NCBI GenBank assembly: GCA_027577415.1
Contig: JANBQS010000882.1
Coordinates: 1 to 10,912 of the forward strand
Length of the DNA: 10,912 nucleotides
Direction of reading: 5' to 3'
From: Coemansia sp. RSA 922
Taxonomy: Eukaryota > Kickxellomycota > Kickxellomycetes > Kickxellales > Kickxellaceae
Positions 75 to 10,877 of this stretch are shown here, piece after piece; positions within the stretch are counted from its first letter, which is position 1, and each line of letters opens with the position of its first letter. The translations under genes and the position numbers were made by a program. The notes beneath the pieces are model-generated. The model had not been told where the DNA came from. It saw only the letters and a program-made list of their open reading frames with translations, and ran no database searches.

Positions 75-151
75 CATGTGCCGCATGGAAGTGCCATTAT
101 CACAACAAAATATTAGTTTTTGTTTTGTAGAAGAGAGAAAAATGATGGTGA

Positions 152-164
152 TTTATTGTTTATT
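152..164 (-). terminator. Twin AATAAA poly(A) signals of copy-1 gene
   Basis: Read on the minus strand, two AATAAA hexamers lie next to each other (plus-strand TTTATT at 152-157 and 159-164), about 200 nt past the stop codon. A TTTTGTTGTG run that could serve as the GU-rich downstream element follows at about 110-120. The same arrangement is kept in copy 2, which supports this as the transcript end. Confidence 0.6.
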
Positions 165-362
165 TTTTAATGAGTGCCCAACAGAAGCAGCACCATTACA
201 ATGAGTAATTACTACTATTACTATGACATCTAAAAATTAAGCAACAAATCGTTAAATTAATAACTTGAGCAACTATTCATACATGTTGCATAATGCTTAT
301 TCTCTTGGTGGTCGGTTTAAACAACATGCAAGCAGATAAACTCACATGCCACTTACTAGTGG

Positions 363-788
363 TCAAAACCTTATCTTGCCAGAATCATTACAATTAAGCA
401 ACATGCACCTATTCATGTCATTGTAAAGCCAACCATCATCATCATCACCAAGCTTAATTTTGTTGTTCTCGAGAAGATCCTTAAAAGAACTAAATTCACA
501 ACACATGAAAATTATAACACAATTTTCTGCATCAAGTGGGAAAACATAGCTTTTATCAGAATTGAGTTTCCCAGAAACTTCCTGCTTACTTTTTACTTCA
601 TCTATAGCTCTATGGTAACTCACTGGATTACAACAGGTATGGCATGTACGTTCCACCTTTGGTAAGTGAATTTTACAATAGTTATCAGTTGCAGTATCAA
701 AATGACCTAATCGGGTGAACATATTTTCCTCATCAGACTTGTCCTTACCCTTACGAAATTTGTAGGCAGTCACGACACATTTACTCAT
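363..788 (-). CDS. Unrecognised Cys-containing 141-aa protein, paralog 1
   Basis: I do not recognise this family. The protein has ten cysteines, including C49-x2-C52 followed by C53, and a C96-C97 pair in a short hydrophobic stretch (residues 90-97). I see no signal peptide or clear membrane helix. The C-terminal part has a D-rich run at 115-118, then GWLYNDMNR. Its tandem paralog at 2037-2465 shares C4, C38, C49, C52, C90, C96, C97 and C133, which suggests metal binding or disulfides as an inference only. Both copies keep residues 1-39 almost unchanged, while residues 40-117 differ at nearly half the positions. I start at the ATG at 788 because it is shared by both copies and lies 116 nt downstream of a conserved TATA box. 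The frame is open further upstream to 1013, but that extension crosses the TATA box and is not shared. A function in stress response, defence or host interaction is possible but unproven. Confidence 0.7.
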   Translation of the reverse strand: MSKCVVTAYKFRKGKDKSDEENMFTRLGHFDTATDNYCKIHLPKVERTCHTCCNPVSYHRAIDEVKSKQEVSGKLNSDKSYVFPLDAENCVIIFMCCEFSSFKDLLENNKIKLGDDDDGWLYNDMNRCMLLNCNDSGKIRF

Positions 789-903
789 GTTCAGGCAGTA
801 AGGGTAAGAATAAATAATAAGCACTTGGTGAGAAGATAGAGGTGGGTTGTTGGTATTGTGTGGAATAAAAGTAGGAGAATTTGTGGAAGAGCAAGGCGCG
901 TCT

Positions 904-911
904 CTTAAATA
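904..911 (-). promoter_or_regulatory. TATA-like box of copy-1 gene
   Basis: The minus strand reads TATTTAAG, at the same place as TATAAAAG in copy 2, and sits 116 nt upstream of the ATG. Conservation of position and AT-rich character between the two copies supports a core promoter element. Confidence 0.6.
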
Positions 912-1004
912 GTACAGCAGAATGCCAAGCAAGGAGAGGGAGGCTGCCCAATCCTTCCCCAATTTTCTCTCCTCCCACCCACTCTGCCACATAGCACTAA
1001 TGCG

Positions 1005-1058
1005 TGACATCACATGTCACTCACGTATGATGCAACATAGTGCTCATGTATGATGTAA
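1005..1058 (-). promoter_or_regulatory. Three bZIP-like sites at 23-bp spacing, copy 1
   Basis: Three octamers start at 1005 (TGACATCA), 1028 (TGATGCAA) and 1051 (TGATGTAA), so each begins exactly 23 bp after the last. All resemble CRE/ATF or C/EBP-type bZIP sites. The flanks also repeat (TCACGTA and TCATGTA before the second and third sites), so the array is a degenerate 23-bp tandem repeat. The same three positions are occupied at the same spacing in copy 2. It lies about 95-150 bp upstream of the TATA box. Binding by an Atf1- or Gcn4-like factor is inference. Confidence 0.6.
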
Positions 1059-1179
1059 TAGTAATAAATGAGTGAGAGGAAGGTACCTCTTCAGCCAACT
1101 CACCATGTGAGGGCTTATAGCACAAAGGGAAAAGCTATCTAATGCAAGTGGGCAATTGCCAACTGCTTGAGCTCCACTA

Positions 1180-1265
1180 CTTTTCAAAGGACTCTGCTGC
1201 TCTTTTGCTCTTCTTTGCCTTCCTTTGCCCCCCATTTTTTAAAGGATGCTAAGGTCCTTTGGCCA
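1180..1265 (-). promoter_or_regulatory. Degenerate 55-bp spaced promoter repeat, copy 1
   Basis: The word TTTTCAAAGGA at 1181 recurs as TTTTTAAAGGAT about 55 bp later, each followed by a CTTTTG or CCTTTGG run. The equivalent pair in copy 2 is better preserved. It lies upstream of the bZIP-like array. The function is unknown. Confidence 0.35.
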
Positions 1266-1465
1266 AGAACAGAATCACCACATTAAGCACTCATTTGCTG
1301 ATCCATTAGTTAATTGTGCTTAAAATAAAAAGGTTGCTTGCTGTGTGTAGTGTGTTAATTCAAATGAAGTGAGATACATTCACACTGTTGAATCATGTTT
1401 TACTATTACACAATAAGTTATTTGTGTATTCTGCACAAAAGAAGAGCTCAGCTGCCAAGAAGCAT

Positions 1466-1755
1466 GTTTTTATGAAGTGTAATTTCTTCCTAGCTATGGC
1501 AATATAGTTTGCATGTCTCGATATATTTATATAATCTACATGAATTACCAAAAAATTAAATAGGAAAAGCATAAATGGCTATTATAAAGCAACTTTAATG
1601 CATGTTGCAAACCTGTAACATTGTCCAAAAATTAATTTAGTGTTTCTTTATTTTCAACACAAGTATCTTGTCTACGAAAAAGTACTACATTGGTTGACAT
1701 TAAGTAGGCAGGGTAGAGAAAAGGATTGCTGGTTTTGGTAAAGACAATGGATGTA
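1466..1755. other. Spacer between duplication units, no gene seen
   Basis: This AT-rich stretch separates the two units. I find no supported open reading frame, RNA gene or transposon end here. It lies upstream of the copy-1 promoter and downstream of the copy-2 poly(A) signals. Confidence 0.5.
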
Positions 1756-1832
1756 CATGTGCCGCATGGAAGTGCCATTATCACAACAAAGTATTAGTTT
1801 TTGTTTTGTAGAAGAGAAAAGGCTGATGGTGA

Positions 1833-1845
1833 TTTATTGTTTATT
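1833..1845 (-). terminator. Twin AATAAA poly(A) signals of copy-2 gene
   Basis: Two minus-strand AATAAA hexamers (plus-strand TTTATT at 1833-1838 and 1840-1845) lie about 195 nt past the stop codon. They match the arrangement in copy 1. Confidence 0.6.
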
Positions 1846-2036
1846 TTTTAATGAGTGCCCAACAGCAGCAGCACCATTACAATGAGTAATTACTACTATT
1901 ACTGTGCCATCTAAAAATTAAGCAACAAATCGTTAAATCAATAGCTTGAGCAACTATTCATAAATGTCACATAATGCTCATTATCTCGGTGGTTGGTTTA
2001 AACAACATGCAAGCAGAGAAACTCCCATATCACGTA

Positions 2037-2465
2037 CTAGTAACCAGTCCTCTTGCCAGAACCATCACAATTAAGCAACATGTCCCTATTCATGTCGTTG
2101 TAAAGCCAGCCATCATTATCACCAACAAAAGTAATTTTTTTGTCCTCAAGAACATGCTGAAAAGAACTAAATTCACAACACATAAAAATTATAACACAGA
2201 TTTCGGTATTAAGTGAGAAAACATAGGCACTATCCGCTCCGAGTTTCCCCAAAAATTTCGGCGTACTTTTAATTTCATTTATAGCTCTAAGGTAACTCAT
2301 TGGGTTACGACAGATACAGCATTGAGGTTCCACCTGCGGTGAGTGAGTTTTACAATAGTTATCAGTTGCAGTATCAAAATGACCTAATCGGGTGAACATA
2401 TTTTCCTCATCAGACTTGTCCATACTCTTACGAAATTTGTAGGCAGTCACGACACATTTACTCAT
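2037..2465 (-). CDS. Unrecognised Cys-containing 142-aa protein, paralog 2
   Basis: This is the tandem paralog of the 141-aa protein and belongs to no family I recognise. Cysteines are C4, C38, C49, C50, C52, C90, C96, C97 and C133. The shared blocks are residues 1-39 (two changes, at 14 and 15), CVIIFMCCEFSSF at 90-102 and GWLYNDMNR at 119-127. Compared with paralog 1, about 40 aligned codons change the amino acid and only about 6 are purely synonymous, concentrated in residues 40-117. The last few residues also differ after a small indel (ending TGY here, IRF there). The start at 2465 is shared with copy 1 and lies 115 nt from a TATAAAAG box; no in-frame extension comparable to that of copy 1 exists. 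Both copies being open under such strong protein divergence argues that this is a functional gene and not decaying DNA. Confidence 0.7.
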   Translation of the reverse strand: MSKCVVTAYKFRKSMDKSDEENMFTRLGHFDTATDNYCKTHSPQVEPQCCICRNPMSYLRAINEIKSTPKFLGKLGADSAYVFSLNTEICVIIFMCCEFSSFQHVLEDKKITFVGDNDGWLYNDMNRDMLLNCDGSGKRTGY

Positions 2466-2579
2466 GTTCAGGCAGTAAGGGTAAAATAAATAATAAGCAC
2501 TTGGTGAAAAAATAGAGGTGGGTTGTTGGTATTGTGTGGAATAAAAGTAGGAGGATTTTTGGAGGAGCAGGGCGCAGTT

Positions 2580-2587
2580 CTTTTATA
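2580..2587 (-). promoter_or_regulatory. TATA box of copy-2 gene
   Basis: The minus strand reads TATAAAAG, a consensus TATA box, 115 nt upstream of the ATG at 2465. It aligns with TATTTAAG in copy 1. Confidence 0.7.
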
Positions 2588-2683
2588 GCACAGCAGAATG
2601 CCAAGAGAGGAGAGGGAAGCTGCCAAAGTCTTCCCCAATTTTTTTTTCTCCTCCCACCCATTCCATCACATAGCACTAATGCG

Positions 2684-3160: not shown

Positions 3161-3345
3161 TTATTGTCCATACAAAAAAAATCAATTCGCGGAATAGCAT
3201 CTATTATATCCATCACCTTGTTACATATCAGCAACATGGAACAACAGCATTTTTCCAATTTCCCTTTTAAAAAGAACGTTGTCTGATTCCTCCATTCTCA
3301 CTTTTTTTTTTTCTACTACCATATTTACTCCATCTTTATTTGAGA
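3161..3345. other. AT-rich intergenic region and T-rich leader
   Basis: No gene is seen here. The end of the region (3300-3340) is strongly pyrimidine-rich, typical of the leader just before a fungal start codon, and precedes the small gene at 3346. Confidence 0.4.
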
Positions 3346-3522
3346 ATGTGCAGAACTATTGAAGTTACTTATACTTATTGCAGATGCGTGGATGAGAATT
3401 ATGAAGCCAGGTGTCTTGAAGAATGCGGGAGATGGTGGGTGGACGATGGGCTCTACTCGTTTGCTGACTTGTGTCCACAATGCAAGGGAATAAGTTCTCC
3501 GCCACTACAGTCCTACGACTAG
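3346..3522 (+). CDS. Small Cys-rich protein, 58 aa, possible zinc-binding
   Basis: The protein begins MCRTIEVTYTYCRC and ends with DLCPQCKG plus a short polar tail. Cysteines occur at 2, 12, 14, 23, 27, 44 and 47, giving C-x-C, C-x3-C and C-x2-C pairs. It resembles the short cytosolic Cys-rich proteins of filamentous fungi that start MC followed by a YTY...C segment and end in CPxC, but I cannot name a family. No signal peptide is visible. I start at the first ATG (3346); an upstream in-frame TTG is not needed. A T-rich leader precedes it and AATAAA follows 35 nt after the stop. Metal binding is inferred from cysteine spacing only. Confidence 0.55.
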   Translation: MCRTIEVTYTYCRCVDENYEARCLEECGRWWVDDGLYSFADLCPQCKGISSPPLQSYD

Positions 3523-3682: not shown

Positions 3683-4015
3683 ATGGATTATCGGGATAGC
3701 GAAGGATACTTTCAAGACGATGTGTTGCGAGTACTAGGCCGACCAACCAACCAGTTTTCCAATACTATACTACCAGATCCAGTGTATGGACGACTTCAGG
3801 GTGCCAACTTTGTAGACTCTGAGGAAGAAGAGTCGACTGGCAGCGAGAGTTCGGAGATATCAGTTGTTGATGAGAGCGAGTGGGAGGAGGCAAAGCGGGT
3901 TTTGTATTTGTCACTAGTCGGAGTATTGCTGCCAATGACGTTTCGGTATATTGGGCGGCGACTGACATTTTCAGTGTGGAGTAAAATACTCACATCATAC
4001 TTTGAAAATCATTGA
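3683..4015 (+). CDS. MIM2: Probable mitochondrial import protein Mim2
   Basis: The likely role is a subunit of the MIM complex, which with Mim1 inserts alpha-helical proteins into the mitochondrial outer membrane in fungi. The 110-aa protein has a polar N-terminal half and an acidic Ser/Glu-rich stretch at 46-69 containing DSEEEE and SEWEE (W67). One predicted membrane helix follows at about 73-90 (VLYLSLVGVLLPMTF), then GRR at 91-93, W99 and a short basic C-terminus. The order acidic region, EWEE, helix with a proline, GRR, aromatic tail with W is what I recall of fungal Mim2. The length is close to that of known family members (about 90-120 aa). The call rests on pattern memory, not on an alignment. 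The alternative is an unrelated single-pass or tail-anchored protein. The start ATG sits in an A-rich context (GTAAATGG) after a T-rich leader, and the next gene, LYS2, starts 204 nt downstream. Confidence 0.62.
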   Translation: MDYRDSEGYFQDDVLRVLGRPTNQFSNTILPDPVYGRLQGANFVDSEEEESTGSESSEISVVDESEWEEAKRVLYLSLVGVLLPMTFRYIGRRLTFSVWSKILTSYFENH

Positions 4016-4022
4016 ATCTAAG

Positions 4023-4029
4023 TGACTCA
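4023..4029 (+). promoter_or_regulatory. TGACTCA site (Gcn4/CPC1 type) upstream of LYS2
   Basis: A perfect TGACTCA lies about 190 nt upstream of the LYS2 ATG. This heptamer is the established site of Gcn4/CPC1, the general amino acid control bZIP factor, which activates lysine genes in yeast. A second related element, TGCGTCA (reverse TGACGCA), lies at 4078-4084. Use in this organism is inferred. Confidence 0.55.
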
Positions 4030-4219
4030 TGGATTGTCTTATGTTTCTACGATCTAGGCAAGTCACAATCTTTCTGGTGCGTCATAATAACAGTAAAATT
4101 TTTTTCTGTGGGGAGGAGGGGGAGTCCTATTAAAGCGTGTCCGTGCGGTCGAGATAACAGTTTTTCTTTTCATTGACCTTTCACTTTTTTATCTTTGAAA
4201 AAATATTTTATCTTTTACG

Positions 4220-7200
4220 ATGACTATTAATCCAGTTTTGACGCCACAGGCGTCTACCGCAGATTTGTCGGAAGTGAGTTCTCGCGTATCTCGGTGGCAA
4301 GATCGGCTACGCAGTCCCACTGAGCTGCAGCTACCCACGGATTATCCACGTCCTATTCCACTCAAAGTAGTCGAAGCGATGGAGACATTCGAGCTAAGCC
4401 CCCTATCCAGTCTCTCCGTCCTCCAGCTCTCTCTCTACCTCCAGCAACACGCCACCGATAACACTGCGAGTCCCTTCACAGTTCTCCTAGCCGCGTTCTC
4501 TGTACTCTTGCACCGGTATACAGCGGAAGAAGACATCGTCGTGGGTAGTTCCAGCGAGTCCCTAAACCCACTAGTATTGAGATTGGCGGTGAAGTCCGAG
4601 GACAGCTTTTTGGACGTATTGCAGATGGCTCAGCGCGTTTCTATGGAGGCGGCGGCTGATGAGGTGCCGTTTGCTGCTTTGATGTCTGCTTATCAGGCTG
4701 ATGGTGGTGAGGCTGATGCGTCTGCGGCACCGTCTTTGTTCCGTGTGAGGTTCTTTAACCAAACTGATGCTGATGAGGCTACACTGAGGAGAACTACTAC
4801 GCAGACTACGGATTTCACGGTCCTCGTTAGACAGAAATCCACTGGGTCGTTGCGTCAGTTGCATCCTACTATTGAACTGCAGATCGTTTATAACCAGGTA
4901 TTGTTCACTGCGCAGCGGATGGCGCACATGGTAGCACAGTTGCAAATGGTTCTGGCTACGGCCGGCGAGACTCTAAGCAAAGTGCAGGCCGGAGGGGAGG
5001 TGCCGGTGGAGATGCAGGTGGGTCGTATGAGTATTGCGTCGGCATTGGATTTGGCTGCGGTTCCTGATCCGAGGGCTGACTTGGCGTGGTCGGAGTTTCC
5101 GGGCAGTATTACCAGTATCTTTGCACGCAACGCAATGGCGCATCCTGACCGGCGCTTTGTCGTGGAGAATGTGCTGAGGAGCGGCGTGACTAGGTCGTTT
5201 ACCTATATGCAAATGCTGAGAGCCGCGCGTGTACTGAGTCGTACTCTGAGGGATGGCGGAGTTGTTAGGGAGGATGTAGTGGTTGTTTACGCGTATCGCG
5301 GTGTTGATCTAGTGGTGGCTATCTTGGGTGTGCTTATGGCTGGAGCTACTTACTCGGTCGTGGATCCGGCGTACCCAGCAGCCCGACAGAACGTGTATCT
5401 GGGTGTTGCGCAGCCCCGCGGTCTCGTCATCTTGGAGCATGCTGGTCAGTTGGCGGACGAGGTGCAGGCATATGTGGATAACGAGCTCCAGGTGGTGTGT
5501 ACGGTGGCTGGAATGGAGCTGCGCGACGACGGAGAGCTGGTTAGCGCTGGCGACGCGATGGCCAGGGCAGCACGCCTGGTGGACGACAGCGAGGTGGACG
5601 AGGATATTGTCGCGGTGGGACATGACTCTGTTGGTACTCTGTCGTTTACTAGCGGGAGTACGGGAATACCAAAGGGAGTGCGTGGAAGGCACTACTCGCT
5701 GACGCACTTTTACCCGTGGATGGGCAGCGAGTTTGGACTTGGATCCAGCGACCGGTTCACTATGCTATCGGGTATTGCGCATGACCCGATCCAGCGCGAC
5801 GTGTTCACGCCTGTGTTCTTTGGCGCCGAGCTGCATATCCCCACGGCTGAGGATATCGGAGTGCCAGGACAGCTGGCGCAGTGGATGGGCGAGCACGAAA
5901 TCACCGTCACGCATCTCACACCGGCTATGGGCCAGCTCCTGTCTGCCAACGCTACGAGCCATATTGGCTCCTTGCGGAACGCCTTTTTCGTCGGCGATCT
6001 TCTCACCAAGCGCGACTGTCATCGGCTGCAGTCATTGGCGGCCAACTGCCGGATCGTCAATATGTACGGAACCACTGAGACTCAGCGTGCTGTGTCGTTT
6101 TGTGCTATTCCGGCGCATTCCGTTAATGCGTCGTTTTTGGCTACGGCCAAAGACGTTATCCCTGCGGGTCGCGGTATGAAGGACGTCCAGCTGCTGGTGG
6201 TCAACAGACATGGGTCCGGCGGCATGTGTGCGGTGGGCGAGGTAGGAGAAATCTACGTGCGCAGTGGTGGACTAGCCGAGGGATATTTGCAGCTGCCCGA
6301 GGCGACGGCCGAGAAGTTTGTAGACAATTGGCTGGCGCCCCCATCGGTTAAAGAGTCCGTTGACTTGCCTTACTACAGGGGCGCGCGGGACCGCATGTAC
6401 CGGACCGGCGACCTGGGGCGGTACCGGGCGGACGGCGACGTGGAGTGTATTGGGCGGATCGACGATCAGGTGAAGATCCGCGGGTTCAGAATCGAGCTGG
6501 GCGAGATCAACAACATGCTGTCCATGCACCCGCGGATCCGTGCCAACGTCACGCTGGTGCGCCGCGACAAGTACGAGGAGAAGACGCTGGTCGCGTACAT
6601 TGTGCCGAGCGAGGAGGAGCAGCGGGCGGAGGACCCCGGGCGCCAGCTGCTGATTGCGAGTGTGCGCGAGTACCTGAGGCAGAAGCTGCCGGCCTACGCC
6701 GTGCCCTCGGTGTTTGTGCCCCTGCGCCGGCTGCCGCTGACGCCCAACGGCAAGATCGACAAGGCCGCGCTGCCGTTCCCCGACACTCCGGCGCCGGCGC
6801 AGGCGGGCGGGTCGCCGACGGAGCGAGCGCTGGCGGCGGTGTGGGCGGACGTCCTGGGGCTTGCGCATGCGCCGGCGCCCGAGTCGAATTTCTTCGACGT
6901 GGGCGGGCACTCGGTGGCGGCCACGCGCATGGTGTTCAGGGTGAGGACGGACTTTGCCGTCGACGCGCCGCTGGGGCTGGTGTTCCGCTGCCCCGTGCTC
7001 GCCGACATGGCCGCAGCCATCGACGCCCTGCGCGGCGAGCTGCAGCTGACCGAGGCCGCCGCGCCCGAGGCCGAGGAGACGTCGGAGTATGCGGCGGACC
7101 TGGCCGACCTCATTGCGCAGCTGCCGCAGCCGCCGGCCGAGGCGCCGACTGCGGTGGCCGAGGATGCCACGTATCTGCTGACGGGCGCGACGGGCTTCCT

Positions 7201-8338
7201 GGGGGCGTTCGTGCTGGACTCGCTGCTGCGCCGGCACCCGCGCGCGTCGGTCGTGTGCCTGGTGCGTGCGGCTGACGCGCAGGCGGCCATGCAGCGCGTG
7301 CGGCAGGCGGCGGTGGCCAATCTCGTGTGGACCGACGACTGGGCGCGCCGCGTGCGCGCGGTGGCTGGCGACCTGGCGCAGCCCCGGCTGGGGCTCAGCG
7401 ACGCGGACTGGGCCGAGTGCGCCACGGCCGACGTCATTGTGCACAACGGCGCGCTTGTGCACTGGGTGTACCCCTACGCGCGGCTGCGCGCGGCCAACGT
7501 GCTGAGCACGCTGGAGGCGCTGAAGCTGGCGTCTGAGGGCCGCGCCAAGCGCCTGGTGTTTGTGTCGAGCACGTCGGCGCTGGACACCGACCACTACGTG
7601 CAGCTGGGCTGCGTCGGCGAGTCCGACGACCTCGAGGGCTCGCGCACCGGCCTTATGTCCGGCTACGGCCAGTCAAAGTGGGTGGCCGAGCGCCTGCTCA
7701 TGCACGCGCGCCACTGCGGCTGGCCTGTGGCCATCGTCAGGCCCGGGTACGTGCTGGGCGACTCGCGGTCGGGCGCTACCAACGCCGACGACTTCCTCTG
7801 GCGCCTGGCCAAGGGCTGCGCGCAGCTGCAGCTGTCGCCGGTCATGGCCAACCCCGTCAACGTCTGCCCCGTGGACTATGTCGCCGACGTCGTGGCTGCC
7901 GCCGCCTCGCATCCCAGGGCGCTCGAGCACATGGTGTACCATGTGTTTAACCATGCGGGCTTTAGATTCCACGATATCTTTGACCTCATGCGTGGCTACG
8001 GATACCCGATGGTCGATGCCGAGTACATGCGCTGGAGAGGCGTGCTCATGGAGAGCACACTGGATGAAAAGGACTCGGCGCTGTACCCGCTCTTGCACTT
8101 TGTCCTGGACGACCTGCCAACCTCCACTAAAAGCCCCGATCTCGACGACAAACACACGAGGGGACTGCTGGAGGGATCAGGCGTGGTGTGTCCCGATATC
8201 AAGAATCTCTTTGGCTTGTACTTGGCCTATTTGGTTAAAGCTGGCTTCTTGGATAAACCAGAGGGCCCTGCCGAGCGCTCTTTGCCTGTTCTCGATATTG
8301 AGATCCAGGGTCTGGTAACACGTACAAGCAACAACTAA
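4220..8338 (+). CDS. LYS2: L-2-aminoadipate reductase (alpha-aminoadipate reductase)
   Basis: The enzyme activates 2-aminoadipate with ATP, holds it as a thioester on its carrier domain and reduces it with NADPH to the 6-semialdehyde, the fifth step of fungal lysine synthesis. It must be primed by a Lys5-type phosphopantetheinyl transferase. The 1372-aa length is normal for the family. An N-terminal condensation-like region (about 1-250) contains LPTDYPRP. The adenylation domain spans about 280-870 with FTSGSTGIPKG at 476-486, the Lys2-typical GIAHDPIQRD from 518, YGTTE at 616-620, YRTGD at 727-731 and the catalytic K845 in PNGKIDK. The carrier motif DVGGHSV places phosphopantetheine on S898. 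The reductase domain has TGATGFLG at 988-995 and Y1149-x3-K1153. No intron or frame break is seen. The ATG at 4220 gives the expected N-terminus, and no ATG occurs in the 75 nt before it. About 6360-7940 is strikingly GC-rich. The gene converges on COA6. Confidence 0.97.
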   Translation: MTINPVLTPQASTADLSEVSSRVSRWQDRLRSPTELQLPTDYPRPIPLKVVEAMETFELSPLSSLSVLQLSLYLQQHATDNTASPFTVLLAAFSVLLHRYTAEEDIVVGSSSESLNPLVLRLAVKSEDSFLDVLQMAQRVSMEAAADEVPFAALMSAYQADGGEADASAAPSLFRVRFFNQTDADEATLRRTTTQTTDFTVLVRQKSTGSLRQLHPTIELQIVYNQVLFTAQRMAHMVAQLQMVLATAGETLSKVQAGGEVPVEMQVGRMSIASALDLAAVPDPRADLAWSEFPGSITSIFARNAMAHPDRRFVVENVLRSGVTRSFTYMQMLRAARVLSRTLRDGGVVREDVVVVYAYRGVDLVVAILGVLMAGATYSVVDPAYPAARQNVYLGVAQPRGLVILEHAGQLADEVQAYVDNELQVVCTVAGMELRDDGELVSAGDAMARAARLVDDSEVDEDIVAVGHDSVGTLSFTSGSTGIPKGVRGRHYSLTHFYPWMGSEFGLGSSDRFTMLSGIAHDPIQRDVFTPVFFGAELHIPTAEDIGVPGQLAQWMGEHEITVTHLTPAMGQLLSANATSHIGSLRNAFFVGDLLTKRDCHRLQSLAANCRIVNMYGTTETQRAVSFCAIPAHSVNASFLATAKDVIPAGRGMKDVQLLVVNRHGSGGMCAVGEVGEIYVRSGGLAEGYLQLPEATAEKFVDNWLAPPSVKESVDLPYYRGARDRMYRTGDLGRYRADGDVECIGRIDDQVKIRGFRIELGEINNMLSMHPRIRANVTLVRRDKYEEKTLVAYIVPSEEEQRAEDPGRQLLIASVREYLRQKLPAYAVPSVFVPLRRLPLTPNGKIDKAALPFPDTPAPAQAGGSPTERALAAVWADVLGLAHAPAPESNFFDVGGHSVAATRMVFRVRTDFAVDAPLGLVFRCPVLADMAAAIDALRGELQLTEAAAPEAEETSEYAADLADLIAQLPQPPAEAPTAVAEDATYLLTGATGFLGAFVLDSLLRRHPRASVVCLVRAADAQAAMQRVRQAAVANLVWTDDWARRVRAVAGDLAQPRLGLSDADWAECATADVIVHNGALVHWVYPYARLRAANVLSTLEALKLASEGRAKRLVFVSSTSALDTDHYVQLGCVGESDDLEGSRTGLMSGYGQSKWVAERLLMHARHCGWPVAIVRPGYVLGDSRSGATNADDFLWRLAKGCAQLQLSPVMANPVNVCPVDYVADVVAAAASHPRALEHMVYHVFNHAGFRFHDIFDLMRGYGYPMVDAEYMRWRGVLMESTLDEKDSALYPLLHFVLDDLPTSTKSPDLDDKHTRGLLEGSGVVCPDIKNLFGLYLAYLVKAGFLDKPEGPAERSLPVLDIEIQGLVTRTSNN

Positions 8339-8355
8339 AAAGAAATATATATTTA
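8339..8355. terminator. 17-bp gap between convergent LYS2 and COA6 stops
   Basis: Only AAGAAATATATATTTAT separates the two stop codons. The minus strand reads AATAAA at 8352-8357, overlapping the COA6 stop codon. With so little space, the 3' UTR of each gene must run antisense into the other. Confidence 0.55.
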
Positions 8356-8628
8356 TTAATCTTTTTTATTGCGCATGCGTTCGGCTATTTTCTCTTTTTG
8401 AATTTCTTGTTTTCTGCGCATAGTCCGTAGTTGTATGAAATATGTCGCCCATGATTCGGGACAATTCGAGTACATTGTTTTACGTAGTTCTTCGCACTCT
8501 CCGCTACCTTCCTTTTCCGCGTCTAGTATCTTGTTTTTGTTTAGACACTCGAAATATATATCGCGCTTGCCATGACATATTTGCCGCTCCTCTCGGCTTG
8601 GAATAGGGTGACCGTCAGTATTGCTCAT
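8356..8628 (-). CDS. COA6: Cytochrome c oxidase assembly factor 6
   Basis: Coa6 is an intermembrane-space protein that helps mature the copper site of Cox2 in respiratory complex IV. The 90-aa protein carries C18-x9-C28 and C45-x10-C56, the unequal CX9C/CX10C pair that marks Coa6 among twin-Cys proteins. Family-typical surroundings are present: KRDIYFECLNKN after the first cysteine, CEELRK at the third and NCPESWATYF at the fourth, followed by a basic Lys/Arg/Glu-rich helical tail. No cleavable presequence is seen, as expected for Mia40-dependent import. The frame stays open upstream to 8760, but the extra 44 residues are not family-like, so I start at MSNTDG (8628). The gene shares a 197-bp divergent promoter with EXO1. 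Confidence 0.9.
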   Translation of the reverse strand: MSNTDGHPIPSREERQICHGKRDIYFECLNKNKILDAEKEGSGECEELRKTMYSNCPESWATYFIQLRTMRRKQEIQKEKIAERMRNKKD

Positions 8629-8717
8629 AATAAAAAAAATAATAATTAGGGATTTGAAAACGTGTTGTGGAGAGAAAAAGATAAAGTCAATTTCTAACCA
8701 TCTGATTACCTTGATCA

Positions 8718-8723
8718 ACGCGT
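8718..8723. promoter_or_regulatory. MluI cell-cycle box (ACGCGT), distal
   Basis: A perfect palindromic ACGCGT lies 102 nt upstream of the EXO1 ATG and 89 nt upstream of the COA6 ATG. It matches the MBF consensus. Function is inferred from context. Confidence 0.5.
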
Positions 8724-8792
8724 TAGGAAAAAACATGGAATAAAATGGGCTGCGCATCACAAAGCGCGTGCATTTCTGTTCTTCTTTTTCTT

Positions 8793-8798
8793 ACGCGT
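8793..8798. promoter_or_regulatory. MluI cell-cycle box (ACGCGT), proximal
   Basis: The second perfect ACGCGT lies 27 nt upstream of the EXO1 ATG, within the sequence TTACGCGTCA. It is very near the start codon, so it would overlap or adjoin the transcription start. Confidence 0.5.
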
Positions 8799-8825
8799 CA
8801 CATATTATTTATAGACTATATAAAA

Positions 8826-10877
8826 ATGGGTATTTCTGGTCTTCTTCCTTTGTTACGCGAGGCACAGCGTTCCGGTCATGTTAAAGAGTTTTCTGGACAA
8901 ACCGTAGGCGTAGATTCTTATATCTGGCTATACAAGGGTGCTTTCTCTTGTGCTTCTGACTTGGCCTTGAACCTTCCAACGACCAAATTCATAACTTTTT
9001 TTCTCTCACGCGCCCGCATGCTCCGCCACCACGGTATCGATCCCTTATTCGTATTCGACGGCGGTCCCTTGCCATCCAAATTACATACCGAGTTGGAGCG
9101 TCAACGTAATCGGTCAGAGCGTAGGCAAACTGCAGTAAAACTATGGAACCAGTCTAAACGCAAACAGGCCTATGAACAGTTTCAACGCTGTGTAGAGGTA
9201 ACTCCTGTAATGGCGAAATTGGTAATCGATGAGCTTAAAAAAGAAGGTTTTCGTTATCTCGTTGCTCCCTACGAAGCCGACGCGCAGTTGGCTTATTTAG
9301 AGGCACAGGGCGTTATTACTGCTGCTATATCGGAAGACTCGGATCTTATTGTGTTTGGTTGTCGTAACATTATCTTTAAATTGGATCAGTACGGTGAGGC
9401 TGTTATTTTCGATCGACTAAAGATGATGCATTCAAAGGCCGTCGATATAAACGGATGGACTAACGAGCAACTTCGCAGAATGTGTATCTTGTCGGGTTGC
9501 GATTACTTGCCTTCGGTGCCTGGTGTCGGTCTCAAAAAGGCCCACCGATATGTGTCTAGGTCCCAAGATCTCCGAGCCGCAGTGCAGTTGATGCGTGGGG
9601 ACAAGTTGCTAGTGCCTGAGGAGTATGAGGTAGAGGTCGAGAGAGCAGACCTTACTTTTAGGTATCAGAGGGTTTACGATCCGAGGTCGAAATCCCTGGC
9701 TTTTGTTTCGCCTCTAGACGATTCTGCCCCTAGTATCGACGATATGCCGTTTATTGGCGTCCAGTTGGAACCTCATGTGGCTCATGGAATCGCTATGGCT
9801 GAGCTTGATCCATTTACATACCTGCCTTTTACTACACAGACTGCTACTACTATTGTAGAGCCACCACCGCCGGTTGCTAAACCTCCTGTCCCGGTTGTGC
9901 GTGGCAAGGCAGTTGCTCCGGTTACGCGCGCGAGAAGCCTGCAGAGTTTCTGGGGCACACCCAAACCCGCCCAGTCACGTCGTACGCCTACGGACGAGCA
10001 GGTACCTGTTGCAAACCCTGTTGTTATTGTTGTTGAGCCTGCGGCGGTGTCGGTTGAGAGCGAAGAGGTCAATGTCAAATTCCGCGGTAATGACCATAGC
10101 ACGCTCGTATCTACAGCGCAGAAGAGCAGGTTCTTTGCTAAACCCCCGCCACCCATGGACACTGATACTACGGATCTGTCGACGGCATCTACGCAAGTGC
10201 CAGATACTCCTCTGACGCCGTTGCCCGTATCGCAGTGTGAAACAGTTGTCGATGACTTTAATCTCGAATCGTCGATACTCACTCAACCTCGACTGTTGAG
10301 AAGTGGGACGGCTATTATCCAGCCCACTCGTCGTCCATTACTTTCTTCTTCGGTGACTGAGGATACTCGGGCTATCTCGTTGTTTGGCCAGTTCACAAAT
10401 AAAGGCGCAGAGGATATTCCCGAATACGCCAAACATCCAACATATAAGAAAAGTAAGTACTATTCTTGTTGTGTGTGGCGTTTGAATTTGGCTTTCGAGT
10501 TTATTGTGACTAATTGTTGTACTTTTATAGCTACACGTAGTGCCGGATTGGTAGTGGCTCGTGGGAGAGGTCGTGGCGCAACTAACTCTGTTCTGTCTCC
10601 TGGATCGCGTACTCCTATTACACAGATGCTTAGACGGATATCGGCTGATCGAATGGCACTACAGCCTCTAGACGATAACCAACAACCAGCCCTCTGTCTC
10701 TTGGATTCCTCCTCACCATCCGCCAAGCGCAAGCAAAATACACACGCAAGTCTGATAGACGAGGCTAAAAAGTTCAGATACCACGCCGCCAGCGCCCCGT
10801 CTCTCGCTTTGCTGGTTGACGACGATATCGTCGACAGCAGTGGAAGTGATACCGAAAACAGAGCCGTCACAGTATAG
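8826..10877 (+). CDS. EXO1: Exonuclease 1 (Rad2/XPG family), two exons
   Basis: Exo1 is a nuclear 5'-3' double-strand exonuclease and flap endonuclease acting in mismatch repair, DNA end resection and recombination. The N-terminus MGISGLLPLL is family-typical, which fixes the start at 8826. An in-frame ATG at 8745 would add 27 residues in front of it. Metal-binding residues are visible: D30, D78 (FVFDGGPLP), E150 and D152 (PYEADAQLAYL), D171 and D173 (SEDSDLIVFG) and D226 (SGCDYLPS), followed by the helix-hairpin-helix VPGVGLKKA. The nuclease core covers about 1-330. The rest is a Pro/Ser/Thr-rich tail without recognised folds. It contains K433-SRFF, matching the Mlh1-interacting (MIP) box found in yeast Exo1. 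The CDS is join(8826-10452, 10531-10877), giving 657 aa once the 78-bp intron is removed. Unspliced RNA stays in frame and would give 683 aa. Total length fits fungal Exo1 (about 600-750 aa). Confidence 0.95.
   Translation: MGISGLLPLLREAQRSGHVKEFSGQTVGVDSYIWLYKGAFSCASDLALNLPTTKFITFFLSRARMLRHHGIDPLFVFDGGPLPSKLHTELERQRNRSERRQTAVKLWNQSKRKQAYEQFQRCVEVTPVMAKLVIDELKKEGFRYLVAPYEADAQLAYLEAQGVITAAISEDSDLIVFGCRNIIFKLDQYGEAVIFDRLKMMHSKAVDINGWTNEQLRRMCILSGCDYLPSVPGVGLKKAHRYVSRSQDLRAAVQLMRGDKLLVPEEYEVEVERADLTFRYQRVYDPRSKSLAFVSPLDDSAPSIDDMPFIGVQLEPHVAHGIAMAELDPFTYLPFTTQTATTIVEPPPPVAKPPVPVVRGKAVAPVTRARSLQSFWGTPKPAQSRRTPTDEQVPVANPVVIVVEPAAVSVESEEVNVKFRGNDHSTLVSTAQKSRFFAKPPPPMDTDTTDLSTASTQVPDTPLTPLPVSQCETVVDDFNLESSILTQPRLLRSGTAIIQPTRRPLLSSSVTEDTRAISLFGQFTNKGAEDIPEYAKHPTYKKSKYYSCCVWRLNLAFEFIVTNCCTFIATRSAGLVVARGRGRGATNSVLSPGSRTPITQMLRRISADRMALQPLDDNQQPALCLLDSSSPSAKRKQNTHASLIDEAKKFRYHAASAPSLALLVDDDIVDSSGSDTENRAVTV
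10453..10530 (+). other. Phase-1 spliceosomal intron in EXO1 (78 bp)
   Basis: The donor is AA/GTAAGT at 10453. A branch-point-like GACTAAT lies at 10508-10514, and the acceptor CTTTTATAG ends at 10530. Splicing joins A to CT, turning KKS... into KKTTRSAG. The length is 26 codons with no in-frame stop, so the reading frame runs through. The intron-encoded stretch is Cys- and aromatic-rich, unlike the polar tail around it, which argues for removal. Confidence 0.8.

Follow-up and report, generated by a model that had tools for sequence, protein, structure and literature searches.

A fast-evolving multigene family of Coemansia with common leaders and support for diversifying selection

The wtf genes of Schizosaccharomyces form a family of which one reference genome is described as holding 25 members (PMC5478263); nonallelic gene conversion in this family includes the promoters, and copy number differs between isolates (PMC6526906). 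The het and hnwd genes of Podospora are presented as rapidly diversifying fungal recognition genes (PMC2873952, PMC9262711), the hnwd genes carrying WD repeats (PMC2873952), and allorecognition is described as controlled, as a rule, by genes subject to balancing selection (PMC9262711). Cocaprins, of about 15 kDa, are placed among the small fungal proteins acting on proteases or glycans (PMC9104457, PMC6272156). Here we analyse two tandem genes, A (C880_366m) and B (C880_2040m), on a contig of 10,912 nucleotides (nt) from Coemansia sp. RSA 922 (JANBQS010000882.1, here C880; assembly GCA_027577415.1, 20.4 Mb in 960 contigs), the whole of which is called the window below, together with the multigene family to which they belong. 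In most groups of this family that were tested, a fraction of the codons evolves with a ratio of nonsynonymous to synonymous substitution rates (dN/dS, omega) well above 1. The leader in front of the coding sequence (CDS) remains recognisable in all groups, even where the coding DNA of the K subfamily, which includes A and B, is not alignable with that of five others.

At least 30 open and two broken copies lie in tandem clusters on 13 contigs of the same genome. They were collected by DNA and protein searches, after which each common leader was read into its open reading frame (ORF); the count is a lower bound, as the searches score only the best candidates. Family genes are single-exon, were delimited by hand from their ATG and encode proteins of 103-144 residues. 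Grouping by eye from the alignment of open members gave the subfamilies K (five genes), EF (two), MEV (ten), MEI (two), SIHS (five), NPVN (three) and DTSS (three). The broken copies, one on C129 with an insert and one on C181 near 17638-18010, were excluded from the selection tests. One open copy (C320_1673) stops about 20 codons early, another (C879_10535) sits at a contig end, a family fragment is found at the start of C159, and some clusters reach contig ends. The insert that splits a family copy at L025:4317-4930 measures about 240 bp and has 46% G+C, compared to 38% in the surrounding gene.

Codon evolution in the family

A preliminary description of the window had proposed diversifying selection from a comparison of A and B and had named further paralogs and codon models as the way to check it. 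The argument from this pair alone did not stand, but selection of this kind is supported by the wider set of paralogs: a codon class with omega >1 was obtained in five of the six gene sets fitted. In likelihood ratio tests (LRT) of M1a against M2a, the statistic amounted to 21.8 in the five K genes (p = 1.9e-5), 34.5 in the seven K and EF genes together, 33.4 in the ten MEV, 61.0 in the five SIHS and 9.8 in the three DTSS genes, and the comparison of M8a with M8 agreed in being significant in all five sets; EF and MEI, with two genes each, had no separate site-model fit. The K genes have an omega of 1.05 overall, with 22% of their codons in a class with omega 5.6, and the overall omega of MEV is 0.91. 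In SIHS the gene-wide value is 2.35, with twice the log-likelihood difference (2dlnL) against 1 being 13.5. Pairwise, omega exceeded 1 in 29 of the 73 within-subfamily pairs and did so significantly in six (uncorrected p<0.05), all of them SIHS, the highest reaching 14.6 (p = 2e-5, uncorrected).

As a control for recombination, mosaics consisting of three segments with different trees were simulated under the M1a null, that is, in the absence of positive selection, for K and SIHS, with breakpoints placed by eye. The first runs (60 for each set) used fewer optimiser starts than the data, the repeat runs (40 each) equal starts and new seeds. No replicate reached the observed value, neither in K (highest 9.4 and 14.3 in the two series) nor in SIHS (highest 11.1 and 12.9). 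When the SIHS segments were fitted on their own trees, all three were significant (13.8, 21.8 and 25.3).

The reading frames of the family are maintained. Without constraint, the five K genes should contain about 5.6 stop codons, K and EF together 18.0 (a figure including that for K), MEV 12.8 and SIHS 5.6; none is observed, bearing in mind that these sets were picked as open ORFs. Gaps inside the CDS are 3 nt long in the K genes; those of SIHS are 18 and 3 nt, and those of MEV (nine of its ten genes) 18, 9 and 24 nt. When 28 members are aligned, Y9 (B numbering) is invariant, and P84, I92, I93, M95, F102, D118 and W120 are kept in at least 90%. Pseudogene decay, which the preliminary description had mentioned as a possible general cause of the divergence, does not explain it in general: 30 of the 32 copies are open, and the CDS gaps that were checked are multiples of three.

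For A and B themselves (70% protein identity), several of the original figures were reproduced. Both frames are open, with 141 and 142 codons plus stop on the minus strand, 43 of the 141 aligned codons differ in amino acid as opposed to 6 with silent changes only, and the core (codons 40-117) differs at 51 of 234 bases (21.8%), compared to 2 of 117 in codons 1-39; the differences are clustered within the CDS beyond a codon-permuted null (p = 0.007). That the core outpaces noncoding DNA holds for the promoter and leader (12 of 129 bases in the 130-nt stretch, 9.3%) and the 3' flank (18/150 or 12% in the first 150 nt, 13/149 or 8.7% in the next 150), but not farther upstream, where 40/270 bases (14.8%) differ at 130-400 nt and 135/368, with many gaps, at 400-800 nt. 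The proposed dN/dS near 2 has to be given up. By the NG86 method, 13.8 of 78.7 synonymous and 51.2 of 344.3 nonsynonymous sites differ, giving a dS of 0.200, a dN of 0.166 and a ratio of 0.83; pairwise maximum likelihood yields 0.87, indistinguishable from 1 (2dlnL 0.15). The earlier dS of about 0.08 was too low because only codons with nothing but silent changes had been counted, and silent changes within multi-hit codons were missed. A codon dN/dS below 1, which the preliminary description had named as contradicting its view, is thus what this pair alone shows. Even the core alone has an NG86 ratio of 1.08, and since neither the leader nor the 3' flank is as diverged as its synonymous sites (dS 0.24), the contrast is partly regional, due to mosaic ancestry and not to amino-acid selection alone; in part, it is that of an older core between younger flanks.

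Leaders and allele-like copies

Over the 120 nt before the ATG, group-mean identity between subfamilies is 0.67-0.83, compared to 0.58 in shuffled sequences. The CDS of K, in contrast, has an identity of 0.52-0.56 with those of MEV, MEI, SIHS, NPVN and DTSS, where shuffling gives 0.56, and of 0.61 with that of EF. A TATA-like box (TATTTAAG, TACTTAA or TATTAAAG) occurs in 27 of 30 upstream regions, where shuffled sequences give 2.5, and CTCCTACTTT occurs in 22 of 30, where they give 0.0; these counts are not independent because the copies are related. A CRE-like TGACGTCA, TGATGTCA or TGACATCA is found in 14 of the 30, 224-358 nt before the ATG (0.5 in shuffles). Conservation of the leader may reflect function, recombination, or both. 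The region upstream of an MEV gene, C420_7621, is 85-86% identical to that of A, up to 14 nt from A's ATG, and the spacer farther up from the two genes is 88% identical; a common stretch of several hundred bases is more in line with recombination.

The genome is, at least in part, assembled twice, given the duplicated segments and gene matches: the 7.2-kb segment from the Mim2-like gene through LYS2 and COX6B to EXO1 (window 3683-10877) has one other copy in the assembly (C159:22734-29939, 96%), C159:3000-6000 matches C327 at 97%, and two matches were obtained for Rpb5, two full and one partial for tubulin, two for longin and four for Rpb2-type subunits. This would be compatible with a heterozygous diploid, a hybrid or a mixed culture alike. 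The DTSS copies on C320, C408 and C327 lie in three segments 90-95% alike, and this region may therefore have been duplicated in addition to being present in two haplotypes.

Divergence between allele-like copies is far greater than between the genes next to them. Judging from the collinear LYS2-EXO1 flank, B and C159_21117m (D) are probably allelic; they differ in 32 of 142 residues (dN 0.159, dS 0.185), as compared to 7 of 1372 residues and 100 of 4118 bases in LYS2 (dN 0.0023, dS 0.098) and 17 of 534 in the first EXO1 exon. Within B and D, 59/429 bases of the whole CDS differ, 42/234 of them in core codons 40-117 and 0/78 in codons 118-142 and the stop; the leader differs at 13/135 and the flanks on the LYS2 side at 31/472 and 20/563. 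Measured against the pooled background synonymous difference between haplotype copies (0.094), the nonsynonymous divergence of the E/F pair is 0.202 (p = 1.9e-7). Seven pairs that are allele-like or matched by position were compared in this way. Their nonsynonymous divergence exceeds this background in four (p = 0.047, 1.9e-7, 0.0027 and 2.8e-14, the last belonging to a pair that also has a high dS and may not be allelic), is not significantly different in two and is lower in the MEI pair. Three of the seven pairs, B/D among them, exceed the background in synonymous divergence. Paired contigs also differ in gene content: C24 has three copies and C181 five (one broken), C368 four and C420 three.

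The proteins and the explanations weighed

Taken together, a Coemansia multigene family under diversifying selection, whose leaders are homogenised and whose copies are co-regulated, is probably the right explanation. Unequal crossing-over and ectopic gene conversion would keep homogenising promoter, leader and spacer, the copies would thereby stay co-regulated, and selection would meanwhile favour differing amino-acid surfaces, as happens in molecules whose recognition partners themselves change. The products are most likely soluble binding proteins that form a co-regulated set, perhaps for defence. Tentatively, and with rather less than even confidence, we regard them as an arsenal of cytosolic binding proteins, similar to inhibitors, lectins or toxins, directed against variable molecules of grazers, parasites or competitors.

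Within the variable region, C38, H41, C49 and C52 are invariant in all seven K and EF members, which suggests a zinc-stapled loop; the site in this branch probably binds zinc and holds the variable loop. Secretion or membrane contact of the family proteins seems unlikely, going by hydropathy only. In the first 30 residues of the five K proteins it is at most 0.53 over 10 residues; three SIHS proteins attain 2.2-2.4 from residue 7, in the stretch that lines up with the family's core strand. No homologue, and none at E<=1, was found among 5.8 billion proteins searched with P0002 alone and with a 28-member profile (1040 candidates scored; C368_13518, or A2, and C320_1673 left out of the profile). 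In the protein database searched, LYS2 is represented by the window's own record and by at least 20 others from Coemansia, the family by none, and the genes are therefore lineage-restricted, unannotated, or both. A Pfam scan of 28 of the 30 open members gave ten weak matches, the best at E 0.039, with no HET, NLR or WD-repeat family found; wtf was absent from these ten, no wtf profile being compared directly. PDB sequences contained no credible match, only three at chance level (E 0.7-1.1), one of which, a zinc finger across the region of the four invariant residues, was not taken as evidence. Neither viral_contigs nor genome_contigs held a family relative, and a limited literature search found no published account, so that the family appears to be new as far as searched. 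A longin-type fold, suggested by eye from the order of strands and helices, was not supported (hhalign probability 0.4% against Longin, PF13774; the comparison used one 66-residue longin piece of this genome, present in two identical copies), and an AlphaFold2 model of A and B was discarded (predicted local distance difference test, pLDDT, 34.8).

Several observations weigh against the favoured explanation. The codon models were run with our own GY94 code (F3x4) and not with PAML, the three NPVN genes gave no significant site-model result (LRT 2.4, p = 0.30), and among the K segments only the middle one was nominally significant (8.0; the others 4.0 and 1.0). Eight of the 73 pairs have an omega significantly below 1, four of the six significantly above 1 involve a single gene, C326_8459, the MEI pair is constrained (0.26), and the focal pair itself lies below 1. 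Coding identity among the groups other than K and EF is 0.58-0.69, that is, above shuffled sequences. The array-side flanks of B and D (52/387 and 68/442) are nearly as diverged as the CDS, and part of the allelic excess therefore belongs to the whole array; silent divergence of this pair is also above background (p = 0.032). Finally, a 19-residue stretch with hydropathy above 1.6 is present in three of 30 proteins, B among them, and solubility is therefore not certain.

The other explanations can be ordered by how well they account for these data. If the clusters were allorecognition loci, their diverged alleles would be held by balancing selection and the products of unlike haplotypes would interact on fusion or mating. 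The B/D core is indeed more deeply diverged than the LYS2 side (31/472 upstream, 100/4118 in LYS2), and the difference in gene content between paired contigs fits as well. The array-side noncoding flanks are diverged too, however, unlike alleles would have to be tolerated together if both haplotypes occupy one mycelium, some 30 copies with a common leader seem many for such a system, and the Pfam scan of 28 members lacked the HET, NLR and WD-repeat families; we consider this role unlikely. Somewhat less likely still is relaxed constraint, under which redundant copies drift near an omega of 1 and the apparent speed of the core is due to old mosaic alleles. The overall values of K and MEV, the two broken copies among 32 with the early end of the open C320_1673, and the raised silent divergence of B and D are all compatible with it, but neither the SIHS omega of 2.35 (2dlnL 13.5 against 1), nor classes with omega >1 that exceed every mosaic null replicate in K and SIHS, nor sets free of stops with in-frame gaps only, would be expected from drift. 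A selfish poison-antidote family of the wtf type, spreading by killing the meiotic products that lack it, would share the fast-evolving mosaic clusters and copy-number differences with the Coemansia genes; with single-exon genes and a transmembrane-like hydropathy stretch in only three of 30 proteins, we think it improbable.

Chimeric copies assembled from mixed or hybrid reads could be suspected in view of the fragmentation into 960 contigs, the two haplotypes in places and the clusters at contig ends, yet paired contigs keep the same order for kilobases at 96-97% identity, the mosaic copies retain open frames, and A and B share one contig, making an artefact quite improbable. That the conserved element is a non-coding leader or promoter with incidental ORFs can practically be dismissed: nothing is better conserved than the leader in most comparisons between subfamilies, and the searched protein database lacks the protein, but 30 frames are open with in-frame gaps, and Y9, I92, I93, M95, D118 and W120 are kept in at least 90% of the 28 members.

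For many proteins with a common leader and diversifying residues, a defence arsenal would therefore fit best among the roles considered, followed by allorecognition and then by selfish killers. A more far-reaching version, in which early-diverging fungi would possess an undescribed system for recognition or defence, with some thirty proteins of one fold, a common TATA-and-leader cassette whose copies recombination keeps similar, coding cassettes exchanged below it and a separate repertoire for each haplotype, much as in clusters of immune or incompatibility genes, is conceivable but doubtful.

The features of the window are compiled in Table 1. The encoded LYS2 shares 94% identity with its counterpart in Coemansia sp. 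S146; for two further Coemansia records the values are 91% and 89%. Between the A/B cluster and the Mim2-like gene, a plus-strand ORF of 60 residues containing cysteine lies at 3340-3522.

Table 1. Features of the family genes and neighbouring genes in the window
Feature	Position	Strand	Basis or remarks
3' flank of A, common to B	75..362	minus	75-360 is 92% identical to 1756-2041
Gene A (C880_366m)	363..788	minus	open ORF, 141 codons + stop; K subfamily; aligned with 29 other open members
Hypervariable core of A, codons 40-117	438..671	minus	51/234 differences to B
CxxH-x7-CxxC motif of A (C38, H41, C49, C52), putative zinc site	633..677	minus	invariant residues
Promoter and leader of A, TATTTAAG at 904-911	789..920	minus	26 other genome matches to 789-960
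Array spacer upstream of A, common to another cluster	1114..1645	.	88% to C420:6490-7022
3' flank of B, common to A	1756..2036	minus	92% to 3' flank of A
Gene B (C880_2040m)	2037..2465	minus	open ORF, 142 codons + stop; K subfamily; allele-like partner C159_21117m
Hypervariable core of B, codons 40-117	2115..2348	minus	51/234 differences to A; 42/234 to allele-like partner
CxxH-x7-CxxC motif of B, putative zinc site	2310..2354	minus	invariant residues
Promoter and leader of B, TATAAAA at 2581-2587	2466..2600	minus	89% to leader of A
Mim2-like gene	3683-4015		domain match; gene name inferred
LYS2	4220-8338		domain match; gene name inferred
COX6B	8356-8625	minus	domain match; gene name inferred
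EXO1	from 8826		domain match; gene name inferred

Comparison with described systems

To our knowledge, very few genes for recognition and defence have been described in Zoopagomycota. A family with no match among the proteins searched, one group with omega above 2 and contig pairs differing in content offer a directly testable entry point, and the case suggests that automatic annotation may overlook fast-evolving small genes.

With the wtf meiotic drivers the Coemansia genes would share, as far as those accounts describe them, a sizeable fungal family, conversion that includes promoters and differences in copy number. The wtf genes are multi-exon and encode membrane proteins from poison and antidote transcripts, whereas the present family is single-exon with short proteins, and no sequence match was found for it. 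Rapid diversification in a fungus likewise recalls the allorecognition genes of Podospora as presented in the sources cited above. The hnwd genes have an NLR architecture, and the WD repeat that they carry was not found in the Coemansia family by the Pfam scan of 28 members.

In being small fungal proteins, the family members resemble cocaprins, mycocypins and fruiting-body lectins. Mycocypins are likewise small fungal defence proteins, and proteins of this kind are not known to carry signal peptides. The cocaprins differ in their beta-trefoil fold; for the Coemansia proteins, Pfam gave nothing better than E 0.039 and the PDB sequences nothing credible. Venom-type toxins differ by features of their own, being secreted, disulphide-rich and equipped with conserved signal peptides. 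They also show accelerated exon evolution, in which coding regions outpace untranslated DNA in divergence, and it is in this respect that the Coemansia family resembles them, as a case of leaders staying similar while the coding units diverge.

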